Assembly (NCBI GenBank): GCA_947498785.1
Contig: CANMLS010000003.1
Span: forward strand, 186,001 to 250,000
From: an uncultured Aquimarina sp.
Lineage (GTDB): Bacteria; Bacteroidota; Bacteroidia; Flavobacteriales; Flavobacteriaceae
Reading direction: 5' to 3'
Length of the DNA: 64,000 bases
Shown here: in pieces, positions 5,676 to 61,964 of the stretch
How the letters are laid out: each line of letters starts with the position of its first letter
Numbering within the stretch: the first letter of the stretch is position 1
Notes under the pieces: model-generated
The model's input: the letters and a program-made list of their open reading frames with translations, nothing else
The model's database searches: none
Told to the model about the DNA's origin: nothing
Made by a program: the position numbers and the translations under genes

Positions 5676-5711
5676 AGTTAATACAGTTAACCATTAATAA
5701 TGTTAATTATT
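5676..5711. promoter_or_regulatory. Island operator, copy 1 (perfect)
   Basis: Four hexamers GTTAAT, GTTAAC, ATTAAT, GTTAAT with spacers of 3, 1 and 3 bases. It sits in the 102-base divergent gap between the VOC gene (start 5642, minus) and the DUF1838 gene (start 5745, plus). A Bacteroidota -7-like box TATATTTA lies at 5716-5723 on the plus side, so the operator would cover the -33 region. Confidence 0.85.
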
Positions 5712-5744
5712 TCTTTATATTTATGAAATTAAAATTTTCCAAAT

Positions 5745-6665
5745 ATGAAAACAGATAAGAATAATATTAGTAGAAGAGCCTTTATTAACACTACTGCCCT
5801 TTCACTTGCTGCAATACCGACTTTAAGTAGTTCTTCTATTTTTAACAAAGACACTAACATCATTCCTCCTTTAAAAAAGATTGATGATGATAAATTTAAA
5901 ACTTACATACGTTTAATGGGTAGCTTAGAACCTACAACAATTTACAAATGGTTTTCTGGCCATCTTTGGGGCATTGTGCCAAATGAAGCACCAATACCAT
6001 TAACCACCTTACAAGGGCTTGCTAAAAGTAATTGGCGGGTAGAAGGTGAGCATATTACTAAAGAAAGTTTTGACCTAGGCTTTTTTGGTGATTTAGAGAA
6101 AGGAAATGTCTTGAATTCGTGGAAAAACCCATACACTAACGAAATTGTGAAGCCTTTTCATTTTATGTACGGAGGCGGTAGTAAAACCATTTATACTCCA
6201 AAAGGCATTAAATCTGGAGAAAGCATTAAACCTTATAATACAAATTGGGTGCAATCTGGAGATCAAGTATGGCTAGATGAATACGGATCACACAGTTTTA
6301 AAAATCCTATTCAACCAGATGAATGGCCTATTTCTTCTTCTGGTAAACAAATGCACTTTGGTTCTTCGACAACTTTTATAGCAAATGCTAATGAACTCTT
6401 TGATGACAAATTAGCATCATGCAACCAAAACTTTTTCTGGACTGCGGTCAATTCCTGGGAACCCTGGTTACGGATGAGACAAAAAGAAGGGTTTGTTATG
6501 TGGCGTGCAACTGGAAGAAAAATTACTGATATTTCAGAAATACCAGATGCTATGAAAACATATGTAAATAGCGTACAGCCTAATTATTTTAAAGATGAAA
6601 CACCTTGGAAAGGAAGACGTAGTACCTATGCCAGTTACAAAAAACTAAGAAAAGGTGAGCAATAG
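5745..6665 (+). CDS. DUF1838 family protein with Tat signal
   Basis: 306 residues. The N-terminus has a twin-arginine motif (SRRAFINT) followed by a hydrophobic stretch, so it is probably exported folded, perhaps with a cofactor. The DUF1838 body carries WKNPYTNEIVKPFHFMYGGG and FWTAVNSWEPWLRMRQKEG, equivalent to the ENPWTGE and WLPWMEMGGRPG blocks of the paralogues, but overall it is the most diverged of the three. It is transcribed alone from operator copy 1 and ends 6 bases before the convergent stop of the CpeT-like gene at 6672. Function unknown; a periplasmic enzyme or binding protein is an inference. Confidence 0.78.
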   Translation: MKTDKNNISRRAFINTTALSLAAIPTLSSSSIFNKDTNIIPPLKKIDDDKFKTYIRLMGSLEPTTIYKWFSGHLWGIVPNEAPIPLTTLQGLAKSNWRVEGEHITKESFDLGFFGDLEKGNVLNSWKNPYTNEIVKPFHFMYGGGSKTIYTPKGIKSGESIKPYNTNWVQSGDQVWLDEYGSHSFKNPIQPDEWPISSSGKQMHFGSSTTFIANANELFDDKLASCNQNFFWTAVNSWEPWLRMRQKEGFVMWRATGRKITDISEIPDAMKTYVNSVQPNYFKDETPWKGRRSTYASYKKLRKGEQ

Positions 6666-6671
6666 ACTTTA

Positions 6672-7745
6672 TTATGAACCAGGTCTAAGTTCTTGTTGTA
6701 ATTTTATATTTCTTTGAGTTTTTAAATCACATTGTACACGAATCCATCCTGGATTAAAACCAATACGATCTGCTCCAGGGTTTCCCCATGAATAGATTAA
6801 TGTTTTATTAGTAGCTTTATCTAAAATATAAATTACAAATGTTTCTCTATGCATGCCAAAAGACCATGTGTTTCGCATACCTAAGAGCATATTTCGTCCA
6901 TCAGGATAACTAAATATGAACTCTCCACCCTGATCATACATATCAATATAATGTTTGGTTATAGTAGGTCTGCCATTGGTATCATTTGGAAAATCTACCA
7001 TACATGTAAAACACCTTGCTTTTTCTAGCATAAAAGGTGTTGACTCTTTTTCTTCTGTTTTATTTTCAAGAAAATTAAAAGTGTTTTCGGTTATTTCGAA
7101 TTGATAATCTGAATGTTTGACCTTTTTACTTTTACATTGATTATGATCTGTTTTTGCTAAAAAACCATAACCATTTCGTTTTAATATTAAAGGACAACCT
7201 TCATACAATTTTTTAGAATCTGGTTTCAAAACACTTATACTGTCAAAGCTTTCCCTTATAGATAGTATTGGCTTTTTAGCATTAAAATGATAGACCTTTA
7301 CCTTCAAACCTTTAATCTCATCATCTGGTATTAATTGATAAATACATTGTCTAGTAATATTTAACGGATCATTATCTTGATATTCTTCAATGTATACGGC
7401 CCCAACTCCAAAATTTGAATTTTGAAATTGTTTTACTGAAACATGTACACGATTGTGTATCTCATTTTGCTTATTCGTATTCTGAATCTTATCAAAATCT
7501 AGTTGCTCTACATTATCATATTCACCTCCCCAAATATGTAATAAATAATCTAGTTCTCTTTCTGGATATGAAAATTTTCTATTAGCTTGTATGTTTGATT
7601 CTAAACGTTTTTGCGTTGTTTTAGATGTTACTCCCATTTCTGGTGAACTAGACAATGGTTTTTTGTTTTTATCACCTTGAGCGTTGCTCACAAAAATACC
7701 CATTAGAAAAAGATGGGTTATTATAATTTTCTTAATGGGTTTCAT
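6672..7745 (-). CDS. CpeT/CpcT-like exported protein with extra C-terminal domain
   Basis: 357 residues with signal peptide (IIITHLFLMGIFVSNAQ). The CpeT/CpcT domain begins LDYLLHIWGGEYDNVEQLDF (family W-x2-G-x-Y/F-x-N-x2-Q) and contains ITRQCIYQLIPDDEIKGLKV and YEGCPLILKRNGYGFLAKT (family GC-x-hydrophobic block). After about residue 250 follows a domain not in cyanobacterial CpeT, with the block YIDMYDQGGEF and ending YSWGNPGADRIGFNPGWIRVQC. The same tail is present at 31498, 58176 and 60105. CpeT/CpcT are calycin-fold bilin lyases in cyanobacteria. Here no phycobiliprotein is present, so binding or processing of a bilin-like ligand is inferred. Last gene of the 11363-6672 unit. Confidence 0.75.
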   Translation of the reverse strand: MKPIKKIIITHLFLMGIFVSNAQGDKNKKPLSSSPEMGVTSKTTQKRLESNIQANRKFSYPERELDYLLHIWGGEYDNVEQLDFDKIQNTNKQNEIHNRVHVSVKQFQNSNFGVGAVYIEEYQDNDPLNITRQCIYQLIPDDEIKGLKVKVYHFNAKKPILSIRESFDSISVLKPDSKKLYEGCPLILKRNGYGFLAKTDHNQCKSKKVKHSDYQFEITENTFNFLENKTEEKESTPFMLEKARCFTCMVDFPNDTNGRPTITKHYIDMYDQGGEFIFSYPDGRNMLLGMRNTWSFGMHRETFVIYILDKATNKTLIYSWGNPGADRIGFNPGWIRVQCDLKTQRNIKLQQELRPGS

Positions 7746-11363: not shown

Positions 11364-11386
11364 AATTTAAGCATTACTTAAAATTA

Positions 11387-11401
11387 GTTAACTAAGTTAA
11401 C
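11387..11401. promoter_or_regulatory. Island half-operator (two hexamers)
   Basis: GTTAAC, 3-base spacer TAA, GTTAAC: a perfect palindromic half of the 36-bp operator, 23 bases upstream of the hydantoinase B start on the minus strand. The other half is degenerate (around 11403-11417). The gap 11364-11488 otherwise holds nothing recognisable. Confidence 0.65.
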
Positions 11402-11488
11402 TAATTTTTATTTAAAAAACTGTCTTTCAATACAAAACTTAGCTATTACAGCATAGGTTTTGTCTATTATTAATTTTTAATTCACTAT

Positions 11489-20231: not shown

Positions 20232-20267
20232 AGTTAACAACATTAATTATTAATAAAGTTAATTATT
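20232..20267. promoter_or_regulatory. Island operator, copy 2 (perfect)
   Basis: Hexamers GTTAAC, ATTAAT, ATTAAT, GTTAAT with spacers 3, 1 and 3, in the 150-base divergent gap between the LeuC-like gene (minus, start 20178) and the MFS gene (plus, start 20329). A -7-like TATATTAG lies at 20211-20218 on the minus strand. Confidence 0.85.
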
Positions 20268-22339: not shown

Positions 22340-22852
22340 CTAATTATCTGAACGAGATGCTTGTCCGTTGGTTCTATTTTTAGGTAGATCTACCCAAAAT
22401 TGAGGATCTATTCCTTCTTTTCCACAAACTTTTCGCTCTTCAATCATAGTTATACCATTAAAAGTATCTCCATCAGACCATTTCCATACTCTAATACGGT
22501 GGTCATCATTCCCTATCAAATCTATTTGCTCAAACAAGATCATTCCTGGCCTATGTTTATATTCCCAAATTAACACAACACTTCTTCCTGATTCCCATGC
22601 TTTCCCTGAAAGTCTAGGGTTTTCAAAAATAAGTTCTCCTTCTTCATTAAAAGGACACACGCCAAAATCTAAACATTCTTTAAAACCATCATCCCATGTA
22701 TATTCATTTACCTGATGATATTTATTATCTGGCAATAAAGCACACGTTAATCTACTCTTCCATTGGTCAACAAGTTTCCCATTAGCATCAATTCTTCTGT
22801 AAGTTCCTTCCCAAATACCTTCATGTTTAGGAAATAATTTTAATTCTTTCAT
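22340..22852 (-). CDS. DUF3598-like calycin-fold protein
   Basis: 170 residues, no signal peptide. It opens FPKHEGIWEGTYRRIDANG, the W-x-G-x-Y-x-R-x-D-x2-G start of DUF3598-like lipocalin-fold proteins, and continues KYHQVNEYTWDDGF, GKAWESGRSVVLIWEY, ILFEQIDLIG, HRIRVWKWSDGDTFNGITMIEER. That pattern of short strands ending in an E-x-R block is shared with this family, which I know mostly from cyanobacteria and which is related to the CpeS/CpeT bilin lyase clan. It has its own operator (22884-22919) just upstream. Binding of a bilin-like compound in the cytoplasm is an inference. Confidence 0.6.
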   Translation of the reverse strand: MKELKLFPKHEGIWEGTYRRIDANGKLVDQWKSRLTCALLPDNKYHQVNEYTWDDGFKECLDFGVCPFNEEGELIFENPRLSGKAWESGRSVVLIWEYKHRPGMILFEQIDLIGNDDHRIRVWKWSDGDTFNGITMIEERKVCGKEGIDPQFWVDLPKNRTNGQASRSDN

Positions 22853-22883: not shown

Positions 22884-22919
22884 AGTTAATTTAATTAATC
22901 ATTAATAAAATTAACTATT
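22884..22919. promoter_or_regulatory. Island operator, copy 3 (perfect)
   Basis: Hexamers GTTAAT, ATTAAT, ATTAAT, ATTAAC with spacers 3, 1 and 3. It lies 31 bases upstream of the DUF3598-like gene and 41 bases after the aceF stop, both on the minus strand, so the DUF3598-like gene has its own control although it follows PDH genes. Confidence 0.85.
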
Positions 22920-42150: not shown

Positions 42151-42197
42151 GCTTTTAATATAAAAAATCATATCTAAGTAGTTTTATTTCGAGTCTT

Positions 42198-42231: not shown

Positions 42232-42307
42232 GTTTAGTTTAAAACGTCATTGTATTTAAGCAAATATTGGTGTTAAAAATATTGAGCACCTTCTTATTGT
42301 AAAAAGT

Positions 42308-44256: not shown

Positions 44257-44265
44257 ACAAACGAT

Positions 44266-45018: not shown

Positions 45019-45024
45019 TCTGTC

Positions 45025-46044: not shown

Positions 46045-46054
46045 ACTTAATAAT

Positions 46055-47069: not shown

Positions 47070-48488
47070 TTATTGAAATCCACTTTCCTCAAAATCCATC
47101 ATAGTTTCAGGATCTGCCGTTTGGATCAAAAGAGCTTTTTTCCTAAAGAATCGTAAAAAGCCTGAATCGCCCATGCGTGATCCGTTAATACCTGATTCTT
47201 TGAATGAATTCTTTTCGGCATCATACACTTTGTTAGTCAAACTGCCATCATTAATACTAATGGCACCTGCTTCTATCTGGGAAGCCACTTTTAAGGCATT
47301 ATCAATATCGGTAGAGAAAACGGAAGCTGATAATCCATAAATACTATCATTAGCTAAAATAATGGCTTCTTCTTCTGTTATAAACGACATGATAGGAATA
47401 ATAGGTCCAAAGGTTTCTTCGGTCATTACCATCATATCGTGATTTACATGAGTCAATATGGTTGGCCTGCACCATAACCCCCCATCAATATTCTCTACTT
47501 TGCCCCCTGTAATTAAACGTGCACCTTTTTGTATTGCATCATCAATCTGTTGTTGTATTTTTTCAGCTTGTTGGGCAAATATCAATGGTCCCATTTGACC
47601 TTCTTCAGGATTGGTAGTCAAGGTCACTGCTTCTGCTTTTGTAGCGATTTCCTTGACGAATTCGCTATAAACACTTTCAGCTACATAAATACGTTCCAAA
47701 GACTGACACGCCTGTCCAGTTGCACCAACAGCGCTTCTTAAAATACCATCGGTAGCAATTTGTATATCCGCATCTTCCAAAACAATCCCAGGATCTTTTC
47801 CTCCTAATTCCAAAAAAGCAGGAATAAAACGTTCAGCACAAACAGCTCCAATTTTTCTACCTGTTGGAACACTACCTGTAAAACATATTGCATCTACATT
47901 CTGAACAACAGCTTTGCCTGCTTCTGCCCCACCTCGAACCAGTTTTAAAACACCAGTCAATTCAGGTACGGCATTAATACTTTTTTCAAGACCATCCATA
48001 AATCTTGGAGTAACTTCACTAGGCTTCAACAATACTCCACAACCCGCTAATAAAGCAGGTATTGTATCAATTAATGCTAATAATAAAGGAAAGTTCCAAG
48101 GGCTAATAACTCCAACTAGTCCATATGGAATCCATTGTTGATTTATTTTTACTGTATTTGCTGAGATAGATGGTCGCTCAATCGGAGGTGCATATAATTG
48201 TGGAGCGCGAAAGCACCATGCCTGTATTAAGCCCAAGATACCACTAACCTCAATAGTAGCTATTCTCTTTCGAGCAGTATCTATAGCTAATTGATCGGCT
48301 ATTTCTGATTGAAATTCTTTAAAACTATCCAACCATTTTTGTAATACAGCAACACGATCTGTAATTGCCATAGCCTGCCAATTTTTCTGATTACTACGAA
48401 TATCCTCTGCCTTTTTATTGATTGCCTGAAATGAATCTTCAATTAATTCATAATCAAAGACTCCTGTTCTGGGGTTTCTAATTTCCAT
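47070..48488 (-). CDS. NAD(P)-dependent aldehyde dehydrogenase
   Basis: 472 residues. ALDH superfamily: VGVISPWNFPLLLALIDTIP, the G-S-x-P-T-G in CFTGSVPTGRKIG, the catalytic Glu in FLELGGKDPGIVLE and the catalytic Cys in GATGQACQSLERIYV, plus EETFGPIIPI. Cytoplasmic. Oxidises an aldehyde to the acid; in the island this could be the aldehyde left by the HpcH-type aldolase or an amine oxidase. Transcribed leftwards from operator copy 7 as a single gene. Confidence 0.93.
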   Translation of the reverse strand: MEIRNPRTGVFDYELIEDSFQAINKKAEDIRSNQKNWQAMAITDRVAVLQKWLDSFKEFQSEIADQLAIDTARKRIATIEVSGILGLIQAWCFRAPQLYAPPIERPSISANTVKINQQWIPYGLVGVISPWNFPLLLALIDTIPALLAGCGVLLKPSEVTPRFMDGLEKSINAVPELTGVLKLVRGGAEAGKAVVQNVDAICFTGSVPTGRKIGAVCAERFIPAFLELGGKDPGIVLEDADIQIATDGILRSAVGATGQACQSLERIYVAESVYSEFVKEIATKAEAVTLTTNPEEGQMGPLIFAQQAEKIQQQIDDAIQKGARLITGGKVENIDGGLWCRPTILTHVNHDMMVMTEETFGPIIPIMSFITEEEAIILANDSIYGLSASVFSTDIDNALKVASQIEAGAISINDGSLTNKVYDAEKNSFKESGINGSRMGDSGFLRFFRKKALLIQTADPETMMDFEESGFQ

Positions 48489-48588: not shown

Positions 48589-48624
48589 AGTTAATTAAAT
48601 TAATGATTAACTTTGTTAACTTTT
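48589..48624. promoter_or_regulatory. Island operator, copy 7 (perfect)
   Basis: Hexamers GTTAAT, ATTAAT, ATTAAC, GTTAAC with spacers 3, 1 and 3, in the 233-base divergent gap between ALDH (minus) and the HMG-CoA lyase-like gene (plus). A -7-like TATTTTAG lies about 9 bases beyond its right end. Confidence 0.86.
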
Positions 48625-48721: not shown

Positions 48722-49624
48722 ATGAAAGTAATCCTTGAAGAACAAGGCCTTAGAGATGGACTACAAACACTATCACAGACAATTCCAACTGAAAAAAAAT
48801 TGGAATATCTGGATATGCTCATAGACGCAGGAATCAAAAGAATTCAGATTGCTTCTTTTGTTCATCCCAAGTTAGTACCTCAAATGGCGGATGCAGAAGA
48901 AGTTTGTAAAAAAATAAACCGAAAACCAGGTGTTATTTATAGCGGATTAGTCCTCAATTTAAAAGGTGTAGAACGTGGTATAAAAGCAGGCCTAGATCAT
49001 TTAGCTTGTTCTATTTCGGCAAGCAATACACATAGTCAAAAAAATGCAAGACTCACCTTAGATAAAGCCAAACAGGCATTCAAAGAGATGGTTGCTCTGG
49101 CCAAATTAAACAACGTTACGGTTAGAGGTGGTATTCAATGTGCTTTTGGATGTCGCTATGAAGGAAAAATAAAAGCTTCACATGTGTTGGATATGGTAGA
49201 TCACCATCTAGATTTGGGTATTGATGAACTTGCTCTAGCCGACTCTACAGGAATGGGAAATCCTAAGGAACTTGGAGAGTTAATGCAAAAAGTCATAGAA
49301 AGGGCCAATGGAATTCCGGTAATACTCCATTTGCATAACACTGAAAATAAAGGCTATGTTAATTTGTATGCTGCTCTCGAAGCTGGAGTCCGTATTTTCG
49401 ATACTGCTTTTGGTGGTTTGGGTGGATGTCCTTTTATTAAAAGTGCAACGGGCAATATTGCCACTGAAGATACCACTCACATACTAGCACAACTGGGGTA
49501 TGAAACAGGAATTGATATTCATAAAATAGCACGTATAAGTCATGCAATGGAAGAAACCTTAGGGCATAAATTGCCAGGGCAACTTTATAACTTATTAGAT
49601 ACTAAAAACATCAAAATTATATAA
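48722..49624 (+). CDS. HMG-CoA lyase family protein
   Basis: 300 residues. TIM-barrel HMGL-like lyase: EEQGLRDGLQTLSQTIPTE (start motif with R-D-G-x-Q), IASFVHPKLVPQMAD, ADSTGMGNP, metal-binding H-x-H in VILHLHNTENKGYVN, and the signature GGLGGCPFIKSATGNIATED with the catalytic Cys. It cleaves 3-hydroxy-3-methylacyl-CoA, giving a 2-oxo acid or acetoacetate and an acyl-CoA. Next to LeuCD and a CoA transferase, the better guess here is a citramalyl-CoA-type lyase that yields pyruvate rather than the leucine-pathway enzyme. The LeuC start codon overlaps within 1 base of its stop. Confidence 0.88.
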   Translation: MKVILEEQGLRDGLQTLSQTIPTEKKLEYLDMLIDAGIKRIQIASFVHPKLVPQMADAEEVCKKINRKPGVIYSGLVLNLKGVERGIKAGLDHLACSISASNTHSQKNARLTLDKAKQAFKEMVALAKLNNVTVRGGIQCAFGCRYEGKIKASHVLDMVDHHLDLGIDELALADSTGMGNPKELGELMQKVIERANGIPVILHLHNTENKGYVNLYAALEAGVRIFDTAFGGLGGCPFIKSATGNIATEDTTHILAQLGYETGIDIHKIARISHAMEETLGHKLPGQLYNLLDTKNIKII

Positions 49625-50857
49625 ATGGGACAAACAATTTCAGAAAAAATAATATCAAATCACGTAGGCAAAAAAGTATATGCTGGTGAGCTAGTAGTAA
49701 CCGAAGTTGATGGTGTTATGGCTACTGATACTACAGCTCCTTTAGCAATAAAAGCTTTTAAGGAAATGGGAGGGCAAAAGGTATTTGACCCTAATAAGTT
49801 TGCTCTTATCATTGATCATGCAGCTCCTTCACCAAATGAAAGAATCGCTAATTTGCATAAGTTGATGCGTGATTTTACTAGAGAACAAAACAGTCAATTA
49901 TTTGAGATAGGTGAGGGAATTTGCCATCAGGTCATGGTTGAAAAAGAGTATGTAAAACCAGGGTATATTTTCATTGGTGCTGATTCACACACTCCCACGT
50001 ACGGGGCATTAAACGCCTTTGCATGTGGAGTTGGATCTACAGATTTAGCAGCTGTTATGATGACAGGCAAAATTTGGCTAAAAACCCCACAAACCATTAA
50101 AATTCAATGTAATGGCATACTTCAAAAAGGTGTAACCGCTAAAGATCTTATCCTCTTTCTGGTAGGCAAGATAACAGTTTCTGGAGCCACTTATCAAGCT
50201 ATAGAATTCTGTGGGGAGGCATTTGAAGGGTTAAGCCTTTCTAGTCGAATGACTATTGCCAATATGTCATCAGAAATGGGAGCCAAAACAGGAATCGTAC
50301 ATCCTAACGGACTTCAATTGGATTATAATTATGACGCTATTATTCCTGATGAAGATGCTAGTTATATTAAAACTTTTGAATTTGATATATCAGATCTAGA
50401 ACCTCAGATAAGTGCCCCAGAATCACCTGACAATGTGCATAACATCTCAAATTATGAGGGTACAAAGGTGGATTATGCCTTTATAGGTACCTGCTGCAAT
50501 GGAAGACTGGAAGACTTGGATGTAGCAGCAAAAATTTTAAAAGGAAAAAAAATACATCAAGATACGCGTTTAATTATAGCACCTGCTTCACAAAGTGTGT
50601 TACTAGATGGCATTAGTAATGGTAGCATTACAACCTTAATTGAAGCAGGAGCCTCTCTAATTACCTCAGGGTGTGGCCCCTGTGTAGGAACTCATCAGGG
50701 AGTTCCCGCCGATGGAGAGGTTGTAATATCAGCCGCCAATAGAAATTTTAGAGGAAGAATGGGAAACCCTAATTCTAACATCTATTTAGGAGCTCCTTCA
50801 ACTGTTGCTGCGTCAGCACTTGAAGGTAAAATTACCAACCCAAAAAAATATTTGTAA
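49625..50857 (+). CDS. LeuC/homoaconitase-like large subunit (set B)
   Basis: 410 residues, [4Fe-4S] hydro-lyase. YIFIGADSHTPTYGALNAFACG, FIGTCCNGRLED and SGCGPCVGTHQG (C-x2-C) carry the cluster ligands; RNFRGRMGNPNSNIYLGAPSTVAAS is the usual end. Paralogue of 18910-20178. Coupled by a one-base overlap (TAATG) to its LeuD partner. In the cluster context a hydratase of alkyl-substituted maleate is likely; dimethylmaleate hydratase of nicotinate-fermenting clostridia is a known precedent in this family. Confidence 0.9.
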   Translation: MGQTISEKIISNHVGKKVYAGELVVTEVDGVMATDTTAPLAIKAFKEMGGQKVFDPNKFALIIDHAAPSPNERIANLHKLMRDFTREQNSQLFEIGEGICHQVMVEKEYVKPGYIFIGADSHTPTYGALNAFACGVGSTDLAAVMMTGKIWLKTPQTIKIQCNGILQKGVTAKDLILFLVGKITVSGATYQAIEFCGEAFEGLSLSSRMTIANMSSEMGAKTGIVHPNGLQLDYNYDAIIPDEDASYIKTFEFDISDLEPQISAPESPDNVHNISNYEGTKVDYAFIGTCCNGRLEDLDVAAKILKGKKIHQDTRLIIAPASQSVLLDGISNGSITTLIEAGASLITSGCGPCVGTHQGVPADGEVVISAANRNFRGRMGNPNSNIYLGAPSTVAASALEGKITNPKKYL

Positions 50858-51369
50858 TGAGTGAAAGAATAACAACAAAAATAAAAGCCACTTGTCATGT
50901 ATATGGAGACCATATTGATACAGATCGGATTATCCCTGGTAAGTATACTAAGACATTGGATTTATCCACACTAGCCGATCATGTATTGGAAGACTTAGAT
51001 CCTAATTTTGCCAACATAGTCCAGAAAGGAGATATTTTGGTTGCAGGTACAAACTTTGGTTGTGGCTCATCACGAGAACAAGCTCCTTTGGCTCTAAAAA
51101 AATCAGGAGTAGCAGCTGTAATTGCACAAGATTTTGCTCGTATTTTCTTTAGAAATGCTATTAATATAGGATTACCTGTATTAGAAATTGGTAATCATAA
51201 TATAAAAAAAGGTTCAGAAATTGAACTCGATTTGCGAGAAGGTTTGGTCATTGATCATACTGCTAATATAGAATATAAAGCGACAAAACTCCCTGATATT
51301 ATGTTGGCCATTCTATCGGATGGCGGACTTGTACCGTATTTAAAAAAACATAATAATTATTCCATATAA
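50857..51369 (+). CDS. LeuD-like small subunit (set B)
   Basis: 170 residues. Canonical swivel domain: HIDTDRIIPGKY at residues 19-30 and NFGCGSSREQAPLALK at 66-81, with the catalytic Ser-Arg pair intact, unlike the set A subunit at 17024. AVIAQDFARIFFRNAINIGLPV is also standard. Forms the two-subunit hydro-lyase with the preceding gene. One base before the AhpD-like gene. Confidence 0.92.
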   Translation: MSERITTKIKATCHVYGDHIDTDRIIPGKYTKTLDLSTLADHVLEDLDPNFANIVQKGDILVAGTNFGCGSSREQAPLALKKSGVAAVIAQDFARIFFRNAINIGLPVLEIGNHNIKKGSEIELDLREGLVIDHTANIEYKATKLPDIMLAILSDGGLVPYLKKHNNYSI

Positions 51370-51370
51370 T

Positions 51371-51940
51371 ATGAGTAGAATAGAACCAATTCAAGAATAT
51401 AAGGACAGTACTTTGAGTGCACTCTTTGAGCAAGGTGAAAAATGGATGGGTTTTTTGCCAAACGATGGATTACTAATGGCTCACAAGCCTGAATTACTTA
51501 CTTCATTTTTTGATTTAGCAAAAACAATATATGAAGAAGGAGAAGTAGATAATGGCTTAAAGAGAATGATTGGTCATATTACAAGCCTATCTGCTGGATG
51601 CTCATATTGTAGTGCCCATACTTCTTATGGCGCAGCAAAACAAGGTGTTTCTGAAGAAAAACTGAAAGCCATTTGGCAATTTCAAACTTCTCCTCTCTTT
51701 TCAGAAAAAGAAAAAACAGCATTAAACGTTGCTCTAAAAGCTGGAATGATACCCAATCAGGTCACTGATGAAGACTTCGATATGTTAAAAAAACATTATA
51801 GTAACACGGCCATTGTAGAAATTGTAGGGGTAATATCTCTTTTCGGTTTTTTAAATAGATGGAATAGCACTTTGAATACACAACTAGAGTCAACACCTAG
51901 CAATTTTTATAACAAAATAAAACAAGATAGCGATGGATAG
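51371..51940 (+). CDS. Carboxymuconolactone decarboxylase/AhpD-like protein
   Basis: 189 residues, helical. Redox/proton-relay motif SAGCSYCSAHTSYGA with C77, C80 and H83 in the CMD arrangement C-x2-C-x2-H. VVEIVGVISLFGFLNRWNSTL closes the domain. Members act as peroxidase partners (AhpD) or as decarboxylases of lactones. It overlaps the CoA transferase start by 8 bases. Whether it protects the Fe-S hydratase from peroxide or acts in the pathway is open. Confidence 0.85.
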   Translation: MSRIEPIQEYKDSTLSALFEQGEKWMGFLPNDGLLMAHKPELLTSFFDLAKTIYEEGEVDNGLKRMIGHITSLSAGCSYCSAHTSYGAAKQGVSEEKLKAIWQFQTSPLFSEKEKTALNVALKAGMIPNQVTDEDFDMLKKHYSNTAIVEIVGVISLFGFLNRWNSTLNTQLESTPSNFYNKIKQDSDG

Positions 51941-53114
51941 TATGCCTTTAAAAGGATTAAAAGTATTAGAATTCACTCATGCCGTTATGGGGCCTTGTAC
52001 AGGACTTCTTTTAGCTGACATGGGTGCTGATGTTGTACACGTTGAACCCACAAATGGAGATAATACAAGAAGATTGCAAGGTTTTGGCACGGGTTATTTC
52101 TGGTTCTATAACCGAAACAAAAGGAGTTTAGCTATTAATCTAAAATCAGAAGAAGGTATTGCCGTAATTCATGATTTGGTCAAAGAATATGATATTGTTG
52201 TTGAAAATTTTGGACCAGGTACTATGGATCGTCTTGGTCTTGGTTATGATGCATTAAAAAATTTGAACAAAGGTCTCATCTATTGTTCGTTAAAAGGTTT
52301 TTTAAGTGGGCCTTATGAAAAAAGACATGCAATGGATGAGGTCGTTCAAATGATGGGAGGATTAGCCTATATGACCGGCAGAAAGGGAGATCCTTTGCGA
52401 GCAGGAACTTCGGTAATTGATATTACAGGAGGAATGTTTGGCTACATAGGTATCTTGCAGGCGTTATATGAACGTGAAAAAACTGGTGAAGGAGGTTTTG
52501 TAAAGTCTGCATTATTTGAAACATGTGCCTTTTTAATGGGGCAACACATGGCATATGCTTCTCAGATAGATTATCAAATTCCTCCTATGCCCTCTCGTGT
52601 TAGTGCTTGGTCTATATATAAAGTATTTGATACCAAAGACAATGACAAAGTATTTATTGGTATTATAAGTGAAAAACACTGGGAACGCTTATGTGAAGTT
52701 TTTGAATGGAGTGATTGGGCAACCGATGCCAGATTAGAAACCAATAATCAAAGAATTGATGAAAGAGATTGGTTTTTACCAGCCTTAGATGAACGAGTTA
52801 AGGGCTTTACAAAAAGTGACATCATAGAGCGTTGCGATAAAGGTCATATTCCATTTGCTCCTATAAGTAAACCAGAAGATTTGTTTGAAGACGAACAACT
52901 AAACAAAGGTAATAGTTTGATGGAGGTAACTATGAACGATGGTATCTCAACCATGTTACCAAAGTTCCCTTTGGAGTATAAAGGAACACGTGTAGAAAAA
53001 CGTTTAGATCCTCCTAAAATAGGGGAACATACTAAAGAGGTTCTAAAAAGTTTAAATATTGATGATGATACTATTGCTAAAATGGTGGCAGAAGGTATTA
53101 TAAAAACAGAATAA
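51933..53114 (+). CDS. CaiB/BaiF (family III) CoA transferase
   Basis: 393 residues. LKGLKVLEFTHAVMGPCTGLLLADMGADVVHVEP (given only as the family's start block, residues 6-39), NKRSLAINLKSEEG, ENFGPGTMDRLG, and the likely catalytic Asp D135 in HAMDEVVQMMGGLAYMTG. The family moves CoA between carboxylic acids, for example succinyl-CoA to citramalate or mesaconate. It would prime the hydrated dicarboxylate for the HMG-CoA lyase-like enzyme of the same operon (inference). Confidence 0.92.
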   Translation: MDSMPLKGLKVLEFTHAVMGPCTGLLLADMGADVVHVEPTNGDNTRRLQGFGTGYFWFYNRNKRSLAINLKSEEGIAVIHDLVKEYDIVVENFGPGTMDRLGLGYDALKNLNKGLIYCSLKGFLSGPYEKRHAMDEVVQMMGGLAYMTGRKGDPLRAGTSVIDITGGMFGYIGILQALYEREKTGEGGFVKSALFETCAFLMGQHMAYASQIDYQIPPMPSRVSAWSIYKVFDTKDNDKVFIGIISEKHWERLCEVFEWSDWATDARLETNNQRIDERDWFLPALDERVKGFTKSDIIERCDKGHIPFAPISKPEDLFEDEQLNKGNSLMEVTMNDGISTMLPKFPLEYKGTRVEKRLDPPKIGEHTKEVLKSLNIDDDTIAKMVAEGIIKTE

Positions 53115-53216
53115 AAGACCAATTTCAAACTAATTTTATACACATTATTTGTTCTGGTTACTTTCAACAAAACCAATGCGCAACAAGAAACAAGCTTAAA
53201 AGTAAGAAAGAATACT
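53115..53216 (+). other. Signal-peptide-like leader without start codon
   Basis: Directly after the CoA transferase stop and in frame with the rhodanese gene, the sequence reads KLILYTLFVLVTFNKTNAQQ and then ETSLKVRKNT before the Met at 53217. It looks like a cleavable signal peptide (hydrophobic core, A-Q-Q site), but there is no ATG, GTG or TTG at its beginning. A start lost by a small deletion at the TAA stop is the simplest explanation. Confidence 0.45.
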
Positions 53217-54068
53217 ATGAAAACAACATTTAAACATATTATTGATGCATCAGAACTTTTTGAATTAGTGCATTCAAACCAGGTTATTCTTGTAAATGCC
53301 AGTGGGGGTCCAAACGGACGGTCCGATTATGAAAAACAGCATTTAAATGGCGCTTTTTTTCTTGATTTGAATGAAGACTTATCAGAAATACACGAAGACC
53401 CTGCTCATGGAGGAAGACACCCATTACCGAAAATTGAGGACTTTGCTCAAACCATTTCCAACCTTGGCATGACACCAGATAGCCATGTTGTTGTTTATGA
53501 TGATAAAGGAGGAGCCAATGCATCTGCTCGTTTATGGTGGATGTTAAAAGCCGTTGGTCATGAAAACGTACAGGTTCTAAATGGTGGCATTCAGGAAGCT
53601 AAAAATGCTCAGTTTCCTATAAATTCAGATAAGGTGACGCCTAAAGTTGCTCCATTGTACCCTGTAACCACATGGCTACTTCCACTGATTAATATTGACC
53701 ACGTAGAAAACGTTTCACAGGAGAAAGATTATATGGTTATAGATGTTCGGGCCACGCCTCGCTATAACGGAGAATTTGAGCCAATTGATTCAATAGCAGG
53801 ACATATACCTGGTACTGTAAACGTTCCTTTTTCAGATAATTTAGAGGATAATGGTACATTCAAATCTCCTGAAGTATTAAAAGAAAAGTATACTCAAATA
53901 TTTAAGAACACCCCTAGAGATAACATCATTTTTCATTGTGGTTCAGGTGTAACTGCTTGTCACTCTCTATTAGCGATAGCCCATGCAGGATTGGACATTC
54001 CTAAACTTTATGTAGGTTCTTGGAGTGAATGGAGTAGAAACAACAAAACCGTAATAACAAAAAGCTAA
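53217..54068 (+). CDS. Sulfurtransferase, tandem rhodanese domains
   Basis: 283 residues in two rhodanese repeats. The N-terminal one is inactive (no Cys; VVVYDDKGGANASARLWWML), the C-terminal one has the active loop FHCGSGVTACHS with C241. The C-G-S-G-V-T-A loop is that of 3-mercaptopyruvate or thiosulfate sulfurtransferases. An in-frame leader-like stretch lies upstream without a start codon, so the present product should be cytoplasmic. Its link to the pathway is unclear; sulfur for Fe-S repair of the hydratase or cyanide removal are possibilities. Confidence 0.88.
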   Translation: MKTTFKHIIDASELFELVHSNQVILVNASGGPNGRSDYEKQHLNGAFFLDLNEDLSEIHEDPAHGGRHPLPKIEDFAQTISNLGMTPDSHVVVYDDKGGANASARLWWMLKAVGHENVQVLNGGIQEAKNAQFPINSDKVTPKVAPLYPVTTWLLPLINIDHVENVSQEKDYMVIDVRATPRYNGEFEPIDSIAGHIPGTVNVPFSDNLEDNGTFKSPEVLKEKYTQIFKNTPRDNIIFHCGSGVTACHSLLAIAHAGLDIPKLYVGSWSEWSRNNKTVITKS

Positions 54069-54073
54069 ATACT

Positions 54074-54628
54074 ATGAAAGGTTCAATCATTTTAATAACC
54101 CTCTTTCTGGTGTCGTGCATGCAAGCACCTCAACAAGAAAAGCAACAAGAACCACTTTATAACTATGACGTAGAAGACCGTTTAGAGGAATTGGGCATAG
54201 AGCTTAGTACGCTTAAAATGCCAAAAGGCATTAAAATTTCGTTTGCTGTTAAAGACGGGAGTACCTTATACCTTTCAGGTAATATTCCTTTTTCTCCCAC
54301 AGGTGAAAAATATGTTGGGAAACTGGGTCGTGATCTCACCATTGAAGAAGGATACAAAGCTGCTCGTTTGACTGCAATTAATCAATTGTCTGTACTTAAA
54401 GCAGAACTTGGAGACCTTAATAAAGTAGAAAAAATAATTAAAGTATTAGGCATGGTTAATGCCGAACCTGATTTTAAAGATCACCCAAAAGTAATAAATG
54501 GATTTACAGATTTAATGGTCGAAGTATTTGGAGAACGAGGGATGCATGCCAGGTCTGCAGTTGGTATGAGTTCCATTCCACTAAACGCCGCCTGCGAAAT
54601 AGAAATGATTGTAAAAATTAGAGAATAA
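54074..54628 (+). CDS. RidA (YjgF/YER057c) family lipoprotein
   Basis: 184 residues. Lipobox FLVSC at the end of the signal, so a lipoprotein, which is unusual since RidA proteins are normally cytosolic. The Rid domain: GIKISFAVKDGSTLYLSGNIPF, EEGYKAARLTAINQLSVLKAE, VLGMVNAEPDFKDHPKVING, and the Arg in HARSAVGMSSIPLNAACEIE. Rid proteins hydrolyse imines and enamines or related deamination products. Together with the exported amine oxidases, a periplasmic imine hydrolase would make sense (inference). Confidence 0.88.
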   Translation: MKGSIILITLFLVSCMQAPQQEKQQEPLYNYDVEDRLEELGIELSTLKMPKGIKISFAVKDGSTLYLSGNIPFSPTGEKYVGKLGRDLTIEEGYKAARLTAINQLSVLKAELGDLNKVEKIIKVLGMVNAEPDFKDHPKVINGFTDLMVEVFGERGMHARSAVGMSSIPLNAACEIEMIVKIRE

Positions 54629-54631
54629 GAT

Positions 54632-55297
54632 ATGCAAACAACAAATAAAACAGCTAAAGAACTCTATTTTGAAGTAAAAGCAAATCCTGCCAGAAAACGT
54701 TTTGGCTTTGGAAAAAAAGCAGCTTTAGTAAATATCGATATTCAAAAAGCATATACACGCACAGACCTTTTTAAAACAGCTTATGAATCTGATCCTAAAC
54801 AGCTAGGTTATGTAAACGAATTAGCAGCAAAATTTAGAGCTCTGGGATGGCCAGTTGTTTGGACCAATGTTGCCTATATGGATACCGCTGCAGATGCAGG
54901 TGTATGGGGCACACGAACCGACACACCAGACAGCTTACAAAACATCAAATTTGGGTCTGAACGTTCAGAACTTGATGACCGGTTAATTTTAGATAGAGAT
55001 ACAGATGTATTTTACGAAAAGAAAATGCCTTCACCTTTTTTTGAAACACCTTTACAGTCATTGCTGGTATGGCATCAAGTAGATACAGTAGTTTTAACAG
55101 GAGGCTCAACATCTGGTTGTGTACGTGCTGCTGGTGTAGATTCACTATCAAGAGGTTATAGAACCATAATTCCTGAAGAATGCGTAGCAGATAAACACGA
55201 AAGCTATCACTATGCTAATCTTACTGATTTATCATTAAAATACTGTGATGTTTTAGAAGTAAAAGAAGTTTTTAATTGGCTAAATACTTTAAAATAG
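54632..55297 (+). CDS. Isochorismatase-family cysteine hydrolase (amidase)
   Basis: 221 residues. Cysteine hydrolase with catalytic triad visible: Asp36 in NIDIQKAY, Lys130/131 in YEKKMPSPFFET, Cys163 in GGSTSGCVRAAG. Close in style to N-carbamoylsarcosine amidase and to maleamate amidase (NicF). In this operon, release of ammonia from a maleamate-type half-amide, produced by the deacetylase-fold hydrolases next door, is the natural reading, leaving the dicarboxylate for LeuCD. Confidence 0.88.
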   Translation: MQTTNKTAKELYFEVKANPARKRFGFGKKAALVNIDIQKAYTRTDLFKTAYESDPKQLGYVNELAAKFRALGWPVVWTNVAYMDTAADAGVWGTRTDTPDSLQNIKFGSERSELDDRLILDRDTDVFYEKKMPSPFFETPLQSLLVWHQVDTVVLTGGSTSGCVRAAGVDSLSRGYRTIIPEECVADKHESYHYANLTDLSLKYCDVLEVKEVFNWLNTLK

Positions 55298-55301
55298 GAA
55301 G

Positions 55302-56252
55302 ATGAAAGAAGACCCAGGATATTATGATTATTGGCCTTATGAAAATAGGCCAAAAATACAATGGCCCAATGGTGCTAAAATAGCATTTTGGGTAGCACCT
55401 AATATTGAGTTTTACGAATTAAATCCACCAAATAATCCATATAGAAAGCCCTGGCCACAACCTAATCCTGCGTTGCCTGGATATACCAGTAGAGACTGGG
55501 GGAATCGTGTTGGCCACATTAGACAAATGAATTTGTTAGAAAAGTACGGTATTAGAGGTTCTATATCCTTATCTACTGCTCTTTGTGACCACCATCCTGA
55601 AATTATAGAATTATGCAAAGAACGCAATTGGGAATTTTTTAGTCATGGTATTTACAATACTAGATATACCTATGGTATGACTGAGGCTCAAGAGCGAGAC
55701 ATGATTAAAGATTCTATTGAAACCATATACAAGCATACGGGTCAGAAATGTGCTGGTTACTTAGCACCTGCCTTATCACACTCAGAGAATACTTTAGACT
55801 TATTTGCCGAAGTGGGCACTGAATTATTTGGAGATGAAGCTGGCTATTATTCATGTGATTTATTTCATGATGATCAACCCACTCCTATTCATTTAAAAAA
55901 CGGTAAAAAGTTTGTATCTATTCCATATTCTTTAGAAATGAATGATACCATAGCATATCTGGTTCAAAAAACCACTCCTAGAAGATATGGTAAAGAACTC
56001 ATGGATAACTTTGACCGTTTATATGCTGAAGGTGCAGAAAGTGGAACCATTATGTGTATACCAACTCATAATTACCAAGTAAGTAATGCGCACCGTATTA
56101 AAGCTTACGAAGAAGCTTTAGAATATATTACTGGACACCCAGATGTTTGGGTAACTACAGGTAAAGAAATAGCACAATACTTTATGGATAACTATTATGA
56201 TACGGTTTTAGCCGATATCGAAAATAAAAATAAAAAATATGGCAACGCTTGA
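55302..56252 (+). CDS. Polysaccharide-deacetylase-fold hydrolase (PuuE/cyclic-imidase-like), copy 1
   Basis: 316 residues, no signal peptide. Opens YYDYWPYENRPKIQWPNGAKIAFWV, with SRDWGNRVG, the His in WEFFSHGIYNTRYTYGMTE, GYLAPALSHSENTLDLFAEVG, and SIPYSLEMNDTIAY. The lack of a secretion signal and the P-N-G start separate it from sugar deacetylases and match PuuE-type allantoinases, which open cyclic amides. I recall cyclic imide hydrolase of Pseudomonas putida being placed in this fold too. Proposed role: hydrolysis of a cyclic imide. Its end overlaps copy 2 by 14 bases. Confidence 0.8.
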   Translation: MKEDPGYYDYWPYENRPKIQWPNGAKIAFWVAPNIEFYELNPPNNPYRKPWPQPNPALPGYTSRDWGNRVGHIRQMNLLEKYGIRGSISLSTALCDHHPEIIELCKERNWEFFSHGIYNTRYTYGMTEAQERDMIKDSIETIYKHTGQKCAGYLAPALSHSENTLDLFAEVGTELFGDEAGYYSCDLFHDDQPTPIHLKNGKKFVSIPYSLEMNDTIAYLVQKTTPRRYGKELMDNFDRLYAEGAESGTIMCIPTHNYQVSNAHRIKAYEEALEYITGHPDVWVTTGKEIAQYFMDNYYDTVLADIENKNKKYGNA

Positions 56253-57165
56253 TAACGACTACTTAAAATACCCTGAGCGTTCCTACGGAATGGATCATGA
56301 TCGTTATGACTGGGCTATGCTTCATGATAGAAAACCTATTACATGGCCTAACGGAAAAAAAATAGCGCTTTGGGTAAATGTATGTTTGCAGTTTTTCCCA
56401 ATAGACCAACAAGGTATCCCATTTAAGGTGCCTGGAGGCATGACAAAACCTTACCCAGACTTACGTCATTATAGTTTAAGAGATTATGGTAATCGTGTGG
56501 GGGTCTATCGTTTTTTTAAAGCTTTAGATCTGTTCAATATCACACCTACTGTTGCTATCAATACGAGATTAGCAGAACGCTACCCTTATTTATTAGAAAC
56601 GGTGAAAGAACGTGGAAATGAAATTCTATGTCATGGATATCATATGGATAAACTACATTATGGCGGACAAGATATTACTGAAGAACAAGAGTTAGTAAAG
56701 AGATCTCTAGATAAGCTTAGAGAACTCTCTGGTCAAGATATAAAAGGGTGGATAAGTCCTGCTAAAAACGAATCTGAAAACACGCCAGATATTTTGGTAG
56801 CTAACGGTATCACTTATTTTAGTGATTGGGTAAATGACGATATGCCTTATGAATTTAAAACAAAAAATGGTAATTTAACCGCTATGCCATTGGCTACTGA
56901 ATTAGATGATTTTTTTATCATTTTAAATAATTTACATTCAGCCGAAGATTGGGCACATCAAGTAGAAGATGCTTTTGAGTTTTTACTAAAAGAAACAGAA
57001 ACCAGTGGTGGAAGGTTGTTAAGTTTAAATATTCATCCGTGGGTTTTAGGACAACCTCATCGAATTAAATATTTAGAACAAGTATTAGAAAAACTAAGTA
57101 ATCATAACGCCATTTGGTCAGCCTCGGCATCAGACATTTTAGGTGTTTGGAAAGCGCAAAAATAA
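56239..57165 (+). CDS. Polysaccharide-deacetylase-fold hydrolase (PuuE/cyclic-imidase-like), copy 2
   Basis: 308 residues, cytoplasmic. Diverged tandem paralogue of copy 1: ITWPNGKKIALWVNVCLQFFP, SLRDYGNRVGVYRFF, EILCHGYHMDKLHYGGQD, IKGWISPAKNESENTPDIL, AMPLATELDDFFI. Both keep the His in the S/C-H-G block. Tandem copies may act on two different rings or side chains of one compound, or form a heteromer. Followed after 9 bases by the BASS transporter. Confidence 0.8.
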   Translation: MATLDNDYLKYPERSYGMDHDRYDWAMLHDRKPITWPNGKKIALWVNVCLQFFPIDQQGIPFKVPGGMTKPYPDLRHYSLRDYGNRVGVYRFFKALDLFNITPTVAINTRLAERYPYLLETVKERGNEILCHGYHMDKLHYGGQDITEEQELVKRSLDKLRELSGQDIKGWISPAKNESENTPDILVANGITYFSDWVNDDMPYEFKTKNGNLTAMPLATELDDFFIILNNLHSAEDWAHQVEDAFEFLLKETETSGGRLLSLNIHPWVLGQPHRIKYLEQVLEKLSNHNAIWSASASDILGVWKAQK

Positions 57166-57174
57166 AGTAAACAC

Positions 57175-58059
57175 ATGATTGAATTCCTATCGTCTTATAT
57201 TCCAAATATTTTACAAGTTTTACTGTTTTTGGTAATGTTAGGCATGGGAATGACATTAACAATTAAAGATTTTACTAGGGTAAGCGCTACACCCAAGGCC
57301 ACTTTCACGGGGTTAATTAATCAAATTATTTTGGTACCTCTAATAGCATTTGGTATCGTATCATTTGTGCCAATGCCACCAATGATTGCTATGGGTTTAA
57401 TGGTCTGTGCCTGCTGTCCTGGTGGTGCTGTATCTAATTTGTTCTCGTTTTTGGCAAAAGGAGATGTAGCGCTCTCTATAACACTAACAGCCATAAGTAG
57501 TATTCTTACTATTTTCACTATTCCTTTAATCATAAATTTTTCTTTAGAGGCTATTTTAGGTGAAGCTTCTAAAAGCATTCAATTACCTTTAGGAAAAACC
57601 ATTTTAAATATTTTTAAGTTAACTGCGCTTCCAACAATGTTAGGCATGCTAATTAATTATAAATGGCCTGCATTTTCATTAAAAAGTAAGCCAGCAATTA
57701 AGTCGGTTTCTATATTAGTAATAATTCTTGCGCTTGCATTAATGACCATAAAATTAGAAGAAATCGGTAATAGCTGGCACTTTTTTAAAGCCTCTTTTGT
57801 TGGTGTATTACTTTTAAATATTTTAACATTATCTGTTGGCTATTTTTCATCTAGAGGTTTGGGTATTTCAAAAAAACAATCTGCAACCATATCTATTGAA
57901 ACGGGCATGCAAAACAATGTTCTTGGTATGACCATAGCCATTTCCACAAGCCTGTTAAATGAACCTAAAATGGCTGCCACCGCTGGAGTTTACGGCATAG
58001 TAATGTGCATAATAGCCATAGGCATTATTCAACTTTACAAAAGAATTATCACTTCTTAA
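57175..58059 (+). CDS. Bile acid:sodium symporter (BASS) family transporter
   Basis: 294 residues, about 9-10 hydrophobic segments. MLGMGMTLTIKDF, VCACCPGGAVSNLFSFLAKGDVALSITLTAISSILT (given in two family blocks: C-C-P-G-G-A-x-S-N and A-L-S-x3-T), and ISIETGMQNNVLGMTIA with the E-T-G-M-Q-N motif. BASS proteins take up organic anions such as bile acids or pyruvate with sodium. Last gene of the 48722-58059 operon. It may import the cyclic-imide acid or move pyruvate. Confidence 0.9.
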   Translation: MIEFLSSYIPNILQVLLFLVMLGMGMTLTIKDFTRVSATPKATFTGLINQIILVPLIAFGIVSFVPMPPMIAMGLMVCACCPGGAVSNLFSFLAKGDVALSITLTAISSILTIFTIPLIINFSLEAILGEASKSIQLPLGKTILNIFKLTALPTMLGMLINYKWPAFSLKSKPAIKSVSILVIILALALMTIKLEEIGNSWHFFKASFVGVLLLNILTLSVGYFSSRGLGISKKQSATISIETGMQNNVLGMTIAISTSLLNEPKMAATAGVYGIVMCIIAIGIIQLYKRIITS

Positions 58060-58120: not shown

Positions 58121-58156
58121 AGTTAATAATATTAACCATTAATTATATTAATTAAA
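58121..58156. promoter_or_regulatory. Island operator, copy 8 (perfect)
   Basis: Hexamers GTTAAT, ATTAAC, ATTAAT, ATTAAT with spacers 3, 1 and 3, only 19 bases upstream of the CpeT-like gene at 58176. No -7 box fits between it and the ATG, so here the operator may lie downstream of the promoter. Confidence 0.84.
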
Positions 58157-60872: not shown

Positions 60873-60885
60873 TTTTTTTGTTATT

Positions 60886-61911
60886 TCAGGTAGTATACCC
60901 ATCGATTAATAATTGTTGTATTTCTTCTGGAGTTGCATTTTCATTTTGTTCATAAAGTAGGTGCCACGCTTTAATCAAATAAGAACCATCTCCTTTGATT
61001 TCTGGTAATTCGATTATCTGGTCTATATTTTCCTTTTCTATTAATTCAATTCCCAATGTCGATGACATTTTATAATCAGAAATTTCTATACTCTTTTCAT
61101 TTATGTGATCTACCATCGCATTCATACGGGCTGCATTATCCTTTTGTATTGATATAACCTTTACATTGTGAGGAAAATCATGACTAATGAGTTGATTTAT
61201 ATAAGGAAGAACAATACTGCCTTCCCATTTAAATATATTGGTTTCTACCTTAAGCTGTTGAACATACATTGCTTTCTCATGTTTAAAAGCAGCTTTATAA
61301 GCATAATAATAATGCTTCCCTGCTTTTAAAAAATCAACCACTATAGCGTGCATTACTTCAAGAGGTAACTGAGGTCGATTTAGATAATACTTCTTAATTT
61401 TGAAACACCATGGGAAATATACCTGTAAATTTGATACGATATCCCAAAGTACCCTTAAGTGATTTCCATCTTTACTCGGTGTAAGATCGGGAAAATAGCT
61501 TTCCAAGATTTTATCACGTAAGTCATCCTCAAAATGAGCTGCATTATCTAAAAATATATGTGATACCATATCTTCATTTTCCAAAGCATAACGAATTGCT
61601 ATTTGAGCCCCTGTAGCTGAACCATAAAGAGCTAATTGTGATATATCCATTTTCTTGAATAACTTATGTAGCAAGATTGTGTACGCGCTAAGACTTTTTG
61701 GAGGACTCTCTAAACCATCAGACCTTCCATACCCCGGTGTATCTATACAGATAACAGTATATTTATCAGCCAGTCTACTCGCTAAGGGTAAAAGCATATC
61801 TGATGAGTGAGGAGAAGGATGTAAAAGAGCAATGGCTGGTCCATTTCCCATAACTTGAACATAAATTCTTCTTGATCCTATTTTTATGTATTTTCTAATA
61901 ATTTGATGCAT
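60886..61911 (-). CDS. Alpha/beta hydrolase fold protein lacking the nucleophile Ser
   Basis: 341 residues. Alpha/beta hydrolase core: AIALLHPSPHSSDMLLPLA (oxyanion HP-x-P block), VICIDTPGYGRSDG, and at the nucleophile elbow LALYGSATGAQIAI. Compared with the usual G-x-S-x-G, the central residue is Ala99 (G97-S-A-T-G101). So a classical serine hydrolase reaction is unlikely. Relatives with G-x-H-T-G elbows exist in the superfamily, and cofactor-free or binding roles are possible. First gene of a leftward unit under operator copy 9, whose left end is 17 bases before the ATG. Confidence 0.78.
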   Translation of the reverse strand: MHQIIRKYIKIGSRRIYVQVMGNGPAIALLHPSPHSSDMLLPLASRLADKYTVICIDTPGYGRSDGLESPPKSLSAYTILLHKLFKKMDISQLALYGSATGAQIAIRYALENEDMVSHIFLDNAAHFEDDLRDKILESYFPDLTPSKDGNHLRVLWDIVSNLQVYFPWCFKIKKYYLNRPQLPLEVMHAIVVDFLKAGKHYYYAYKAAFKHEKAMYVQQLKVETNIFKWEGSIVLPYINQLISHDFPHNVKVISIQKDNAARMNAMVDHINEKSIEISDYKMSSTLGIELIEKENIDQIIELPEIKGDGSYLIKAWHLLYEQNENATPEEIQQLLIDGYTT

Positions 61912-61928
61912 AATAATATAAATAAAAT

Positions 61929-61964
61929 AGTTAACTTAGTTAATTATTTATAATATTAACTATT
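61929..61964. promoter_or_regulatory. Island operator, copy 9 (one mismatch)
   Basis: Hexamers GTTAAC, GTTAAT, ATTTAT (one mismatch), ATTAAC with spacers 3, 1 and 3, in the divergent gap between the hydrolase (minus, 61911) and the MDR reductase (plus, 62003). Confidence 0.8.

Follow-up and report, generated by a model that had tools for sequence, protein, structure and literature searches.

A doubled 19-bp palindrome precedes the genes of an Aquimarina island and points to a probable MarR-family repressor

In a 64,000-nucleotide stretch of the genome of an uncultured Aquimarina species (the window; assembly GCA_947498785.1, contig CANMLS010000003.1, here C3:186001-250000), nine intergenic arrays of four RTTAAY hexamers precede the genes of a large island. 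We propose, with good confidence, that the regulator acting at these arrays is a MarR-family protein encoded just beyond the window (C3:251292-251816) and that it controls the whole island as a repressor, its repression likely being relieved by a compound of the pathway. The proposal is drawn from sequence comparison. The smaller repeated unit is a 19-bp palindrome, TAGTTAAYNNNRTTAACTA, and the array consists of two such units overlapping at an offset of 16 bp. Between position 2752 and the marR gene, nearly every gene run has an array or a single unit at its start, as judged from the map of open reading frames (ORFs) and Pfam matches.

A pattern scan of the window for RTTAAY-N3-RTTAAY-N1-RTTAAY-N3-RTTAAY returned eight perfect copies and a ninth with one mismatch, the third hexamer being ATTTAT. 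An earlier note on this DNA had counted the same nine, and their cores begin one base after the positions it gave. The window has 34% GC and lone RTTAAY hexamers are common in it. When up to three mismatches were allowed, the window held 9 matches against 0.07 expected from dinucleotide shuffles, and none of 100 shuffles reached 9. The source genome (G000, 5.67 Mb in 195 contigs) contains exactly eight perfect arrays, all inside the window, and the reversed pattern, used as a control, has no perfect match in the whole genome; at up to three mismatches the genome adds three places, each with three mismatches, and the reversed control gives 13. A matrix built from 65 distinct arrays scores the window arrays at 36-50, and no place in 180 kb of the contig beyond the island reaches 12. 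The note had named an equal array density elsewhere as the finding that would overturn its claim. The scans contradict such a density, the excess being confined to the window and the rest of the genome lacking any perfect copy, and they support the note's view that the array set marks one regulon across, and confined to, the island.

Each of the nine arrays has a gene start on at least one side, and five are flanked by divergent genes, in line with the four or five counted before. Among the eight perfect arrays, each of which rests on the scan, the shuffles and its counterparts in relatives, four putative double operators separate divergent genes: 5677-5707, between a glyoxalase-like gene (4686-5663, minus strand) and a DUF1838 gene (5745-6665, plus), a pair that is the same in relatives; 20233-20263, between an aconitase-like operon (20178-11489, minus) and a gene for an MFS transporter (from 20329, plus); 27357-27387, between an aceE-like gene (24598-27282, minus) and an amidohydrolase gene (from 27415, plus); and 48590-48620, between an aldehyde dehydrogenase gene (47070-48488, minus) and a run of HMGL, aconitase and CoA-transferase genes (48722-58059, plus). 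The others lie upstream of the DUF3598 gene (array 22885-22915; gene 22340-22852, minus), of a run of FGE-sulfatase-like, amine oxidase, CpeT and MFS genes (28897-28927; 29003-35851, plus), of the TonB receptor gene run (38384-38414; 38522-47059, plus) and, by 23 bp, of a CpeT-like gene (58122-58152; from 58176, plus). The ninth array (61930-61960) separates a hydrolase run (61911-59356, minus) from the operon that ends with marR (plus). The murF part of the window has no array, as noted before.

The two half-copies previously reported also proved real, each holding a perfect and isolated 19-bp palindrome. One (11385-11403) stands before the hydantoinase-B (hydB) operon (11363-6672, minus) and the other (37795-37813, palindrome scan) before an amidohydrolase-like remnant (about 37818-38360, plus). 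The stretch 37818-38360 has no long open frame, and pieces of it weakly match the island amidohydrolase, so that it is probably a decayed paralogue with a retained operator. The 180 kb of this contig beyond the island contain no isolated unit with two or fewer mismatches, and all nine places where G000 carries a unit with at most one mismatch fall within C3:191675-250166, the reversed control having 4 in the genome. Isolated copies of TAGTTAAYNNNRTTAACTA are present in all five whole islands that we read. The 19-mer at the hydB promoter is identical in five genomes (L028:2020, L238:3191, L242:7525, L247:15907 and the window) and lies about 10-21 bp before hydB; since HydB of genome G086 is 98.5% identical to that of the window, the shared 19-mer there may reflect recent exchange. 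Directly upstream of the nitrilase-marR gene pair, a single unit was found in all 25 flavobacterial loci, to which this search was restricted (19 perfect, five with one mismatch and one with two). In G140 and G328, two separate single units replace the array between the aldehyde dehydrogenase and HMGL genes. Because the isolated units keep their positions, we read the array as two units that share their inner flanks.

The offset between the two units is nearly invariant. In 744 kb of sequence, made up of stretches fetched by marR position or as whole islands and mostly from genomes chosen for a perfect array, pairs of perfect units are spaced by 16 bp in 35 cases, by 54 bp in one and by no other distance up to 80 bp; with one mismatch allowed, 71 of 89 pairs are at 16 bp. 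In a comparison of 74 distinct arrays, the palindrome continues into the flanks and reads AAATAGTTAAY...RTTAACTATTT, with T at 92% in the outer flank. (The matrix, flank and gene-order counts cover 48 island loci plus the window, one locus, L075, being left out; the promoter-motif count below includes it.) The hexamers of one unit are centered 9 bp apart, about one helix turn, and 16 bp is about 1.5 turns of B-DNA, which would place neighboring dimers on opposite faces of the DNA. We therefore read the single site as the predicted target of one MarR dimer and the array as that of two dimers on opposite faces. The earlier note had described a palindrome of palindromes bound by two dimers side by side; this fits the unit structure, and the refinement is that the unit is a 19-bp palindrome which also stands alone. 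The ATTTA variant of the third hexamer at the array that separates the hydrolase gene (ABhyd) from the oxidoreductase gene (ADH3) recurs in 20 of 23 flavobacterial loci and in none of five Saprospiraceae loci. Such recurrence marks a kept variant and not decay, perhaps a weaker site for autoregulation.

The candidate regulator gene lies 1.3 kb beyond the window and encodes a product of 174 residues. The note had placed the regulator outside the window, and a Pfam scan of 60 window ORFs, five of which had no match at all, indeed found no DNA-binding family among them. It had also pointed to a gene with the site in its own promoter, and marR answers this description, its operon carrying both the 61930 array and a single site with one mismatch (C3:250148-250166). 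The operon opens on the plus strand with a zinc-type oxidoreductase gene (62003-62998), continues with a gene without Pfam or NCBIfam match (63008-64000 and on to contig position 250090, 90 bases past the window) and a nitrilase gene (C3:250205-251218), and closes with marR. The product exceeds the Pfam cut-offs of PF12802 (47.2 bits, cut-off 27) and PF01047 (38.5 bits, cut-off 24.6). Residues D100, R101, R102, K104, L106, L108 and T109 are invariant in all 25 alignment rows, and we take the region around D100-R101-R102 to be the wing motif of the family. An AlphaFold2 model (pLDDT 80.1, pTM 0.71) finds its best structural matches among MarR-family proteins, with MepR at Z 15.7 and ST1710 at Z 15.4. 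The protein misses the NCBIfam cut-offs of the AdcR/ZitR zinc subgroup (NF038251, 34.8 bits against 175) and of the bilirubin-utilization regulator BilQ (NF045593, 28.8 bits against 125).

To see how far the array and marR travel together, we turned to other genomes. A collection of 84,980 species was scanned for the perfect array, and 80 of at least 114 stretches were examined; among these 80 loci, 49 have the array beside orthologues of island genes and 31 do not, the latter mostly from unrelated organisms, with four Flavobacteriia by title. The 49 island loci represent 28 genomes, from Maribacter, Croceitalea, Muricauda and other Flavobacteriaceae, Aquimarina sp. RZ0 and Saprospiraceae including Lewinella. 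Among the loci listed, all 28 genomes have a MarR orthologue, at 75-90% identity in 22 flavobacterial genomes and 44-52% in six Saprospiraceae. In 21 control genomes drawn from the 31 loci with an array hit and no island genes, no close MarR match was found, only one partial match of 31% at E<=1e-8. The array lies between ABhyd and ADH3 in all 28 loci that hold this stretch, and in 24 of them marR comes after ADH3 in the same orientation (23/23 flavobacterial and 1/5 Saprospiraceae); L218, L226 and L232, which start at a contig end within the marR/ADH3 run, were left out of the promoter scoring. Only marR was found with every island examined, other regulators occurring in single genomes. From a reading of ORF starts in five relatives, a protein with a cNMP domain and a LytTR response regulator were considered as island regulators and rejected, both being near the G086 island only. 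In three Saprospiraceae loci (L230, L231 and L233), two different marR paralogues lie inside the island.

Within the genus Aquimarina (66 genomes), close MarR orthologues (at least 88% identity) occur in G000, G026 and G058, and perfect arrays in the first two. In the stretches read, G058 has part of the island beside marR; its ABhyd/ADH3 promoter carries an array with one mismatch, and nitrilase-marR is preceded by a perfect single site. Among 299 evenly drawn Flavobacteriaceae, three genomes have exact arrays, the same three have the DUF3598 island marker, and marR is present in these three and in G266, which has neither the marker nor a perfect array. On the contig of the G266 marR, a perfect single site (G266:C9:160922, locus L236) precedes a biotin-carrier-like carboxylase subunit gene by about 70 bp, suggesting that the site follows marR and not only the island. 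An evenly drawn sample of the phylum (395 genomes) added three more marR homologues in one genus of another family (f19, 44-49% GC in the stretches); in G424 and G443 marR lies among island genes, and within the stretches read the highest matrix score is at the DUF3598/MFS promoter. By eye, at least five hexamer-like repeats with alternating 3- and 1-base spacers are visible at this promoter (L271:14496-14545 and L275:4476-4540). The G086 island (L247, L248) is a patchwork, parts of it having 95-99% protein identity to the window and other parts 56-81%, which suggests recent exchange of pieces between genera; L078 and L124 also contain stretches that are 96-99% identical.

The arrays lie close to gene starts. 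Beside island homologues there are 142 distinct arrays, of which 138 stand before one or more mapped gene starts (before two in 82 cases), at a median distance of about 50 bp. Bacteroidota promoters have -7 and -33 elements. The strict -7 consensus TAnnTTTG was too rare to be informative (5 of 220 flanks), and we used the looser TAnnTTT, which begins 7-11 bp beyond the array in 54 of 220 start-facing flanks, compared with 4/220 at a control offset and 4/64 in flanks facing no mapped start. An array that ends about 10 bp before a -7-like element covers the -33 region, which fits repression by occlusion. We infer the following mechanism. Each MarR dimer would bind one 19-bp palindrome. At a few promoters one unit would stand alone; at most promoters two overlapping units, with centers 16 bp apart, would hold two dimers on opposite faces, possibly in a cooperative manner. 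The bound dimers would cover the -33 region and the spacer and so block the RNA polymerase, and between divergent genes one array could shut off both directions. A pathway compound would then release the dimers and induce the island and its regulator together, as marR would be autoregulated through its two sites, 61930 and C3:250148.

Several observations weigh against this interpretation. In four of the five scored Saprospiraceae loci, marR is nearby and outside the array-led gene run, and it is because of these loci that we do not place our confidence in the MarR regulator any higher; in G058, the marR gene run is broken by an opposing gene. The -7-like motif is seen in only a quarter of the start-facing flanks. 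The screen for other regulators consisted of reading the first 50-60 residues of the ORFs in five relatives, with Pfam on two. Inheritance of a single island accounts in part for the co-occurrence of marR and array. Only G266 separates the two, and it lacks the array: it has one place with two mismatches and a trace scoring 14 just before marR, together with a perfect single site beside genes without evident link (C10:164806) and another with one mismatch (C3:7130). The f19 sites are degenerate, with matrix scores of 22.0 (G424) and 13.1 (G443) compared with 36-50 in the window, and in G535, also of f19 and represented by a 20.5-kb contig, no site was found in the 20 kb searched. Single sites with one mismatch have a background of 0-6 per genome in the reversed control, compared with 9 in G000. 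The genomes and sites are related and some islands were apparently exchanged recently, and the counts are not independent.

Some of these observations could also be read as signs that a different regulator, encoded elsewhere, binds the arrays, with the marR gene being a co-inherited target or having another role. Whole islands inherit arrays and marR together, so linkage alone is no proof of binding; the Saprospiraceae gene order and a regulator screen that covered ORF starts in five relatives leave room for such a protein. We nevertheless think it improbable, given the single site before nitrilase-marR in every flavobacterial locus, the constancy with which marR alone accompanies the islands, the retention in G266 of marR and a site upstream of the carboxylase subunit gene without the island marker, and the resemblance of the half-sites to known MarR-family operators. 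If the MarR protein is the regulator, it might still act as an activator or dual regulator that recruits the polymerase from the arrays when bound by its ligand. The array lies upstream of the -7-like element and not over it, and RmaH, a MarR-family protein that activates, has been reported (PMC13277315). However, by inference from the distance of about 10 bp, the -33 region lies under the array, and an activator bound there would be in competition with the polymerase; we regard activation as unlikely.

As for the unit of recognition, the central 13-bp palindrome (RTTAAY-N-RTTAAY) could bind one middle dimer, with the outer hexamers as weak flanking half-sites. The palindrome-of-palindromes shape allows this, and inner and outer hexamers are equally invariant, although the search pattern itself imposes this; yet it is isolated 3-spaced pairs with outer TA...TA flanks that recur at orthologous positions, the sole isolated 1-spaced pair of the window (3220) is inside an ORF, and conservation reaches into the outer flank beyond the hexamers. 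We give the central palindrome very little weight compared with the 19-bp unit. An origin of the arrays as AT-rich background, or as a mobile repeat with no part in regulation, could be suspected from the low GC content and the abundance of single hexamers, but the expectation from the shuffles, the absence of other perfect arrays from the genome and the fact that the array precedes the same genes across genera while spacers and flanks differ make this close to negligible.

The preferred interpretation, repression of the whole island by the MarR protein, raises the question of what the island does. It encodes four CpeT-like proteins, one DUF3598 protein, three DUF1838 proteins, a HapK-like protein, hydantoinase A/B, an amidohydrolase, an isochorismatase and YjgF, as well as two polysaccharide-deacetylase-like proteins, two aconitase-like pairs, HMGL and HpcH lyases, a class III CoA-transferase and an aceE/E2 pair; transport is represented by three MFS transporters, one SBF transporter and one TonB receptor. 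At the edge of the island, G140, G328 and G086 have acyl-CoA carboxylase-like genes (identified by Pfam for two G140 proteins and otherwise by the resemblance of their N-termini), and G086 also has methylmalonyl-CoA mutase genes. In G140 and G328, as in G266, a perfect single site precedes the biotin-carrier gene. CpeT is a bilin-lyase family, and the fragments of a tetrapyrrole would include maleimides. The gene content suggests, as a leading guess for the substrate, a linear tetrapyrrole or its fragments, broken down via cyclic imides to acyl-CoA units. We advance only tentatively, as a minority possibility, that the MarR protein senses a linear tetrapyrrole (a phycobilin, a bilirubin-like compound or a chlorophyll catabolite) or its maleimide fragments, and that the arrays switch on a complete, undescribed pathway of marine Bacteroidota. 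In such a pathway, the bilin would be captured by the four CpeT-like and the DUF3598 proteins and oxidized to cyclic imides, the imides and amides would be opened and the products hydrated by the two aconitase-like pairs, and lyases would cleave them to pyruvate, acetyl-CoA and propionyl-CoA. If this is true, doubling of the site at a fixed offset of 16 bp would make commitment to a costly pathway depend on a sharp threshold. Near the island of four relatives we also noticed a protein of about 500 residues (L027 16702-18201, L240 11382-12887, L244 11680-13182 and L246 7234-8709; 55-72% identical), which is not among the ORFs of L014, the left flank of the window being outside that reading.

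MarR proteins usually control one neighboring operon. Here, one MarR protein appears to command twelve sites (nine arrays and three single units) and about sixty genes in a 60-kb island, through a two-tier code of single and double sites that several genera have retained and that can be traced into a second family. By sequence alone, the regulon outlines an uncharacterized catabolic pathway, and a compound that releases the MarR protein from a 19-bp oligonucleotide would likely be a substrate or intermediate of that pathway. Among the open-license papers listed, we recognized none that describes this gene set or regulon.

The remark of the earlier note that it knew no described operator of this shape needs correction as a sign of novelty, as the MarR family offers precedents for its elements. 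On a 30-bp duplex, two Rv2887 dimers occupy nearly opposite faces and cover 15 bp each, an arrangement likened to the ST1710-DNA complex (PMC5526998). The 16-bp offset of our arrays predicts the same two-dimer layout, whereas the footprinted Rv2887 site is GC-rich with a short palindrome and ours is a highly conserved palindromic pair at nine places. MepR of Staphylococcus aureus, the best structural match, is thought to bind as two dimers at the mepA promoter and one at mepR, the two-dimer promoter being repressed more tightly (PMC3617543), which is the same single/double logic; unlike the island protein, to which it has about 24% identity, MepR controls a local efflux operon through a GTTAG motif and responds to an unrelated ligand class. 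The zinc repressors ZitR and AdcR use TTAACYRGTTAA palindromes, one or two per promoter, which in the case of ZitR overlap the -35 and -10 boxes (PMC6372160). The island site similarly reads TTAAY-NNN-RTTAA, but its spacer has 3 bases instead of 2, it has outer TA flanks and the regulated genes look catabolic. The heme sensor PefR of Streptococcus was studied with an operator oligonucleotide, TAGTT-N8-AACTA, with AT-rich arms (PMC8044140), and the island site contains TAGTT-N9-AACTA, a likeness that we note for the half-sites only. PefR controls heme efflux and, at about 18% identity (7dvr), is no closer to the island protein than other MarR structures are; from its heme sensing, a MarR protein released by a tetrapyrrole is already known. 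In summary, two-dimer and single/double MarR operators have precedents, and what is new, as far as our literature searches show, is the doubling of the site at a constant offset, together with the regulon's size and the set of genes that it would include.

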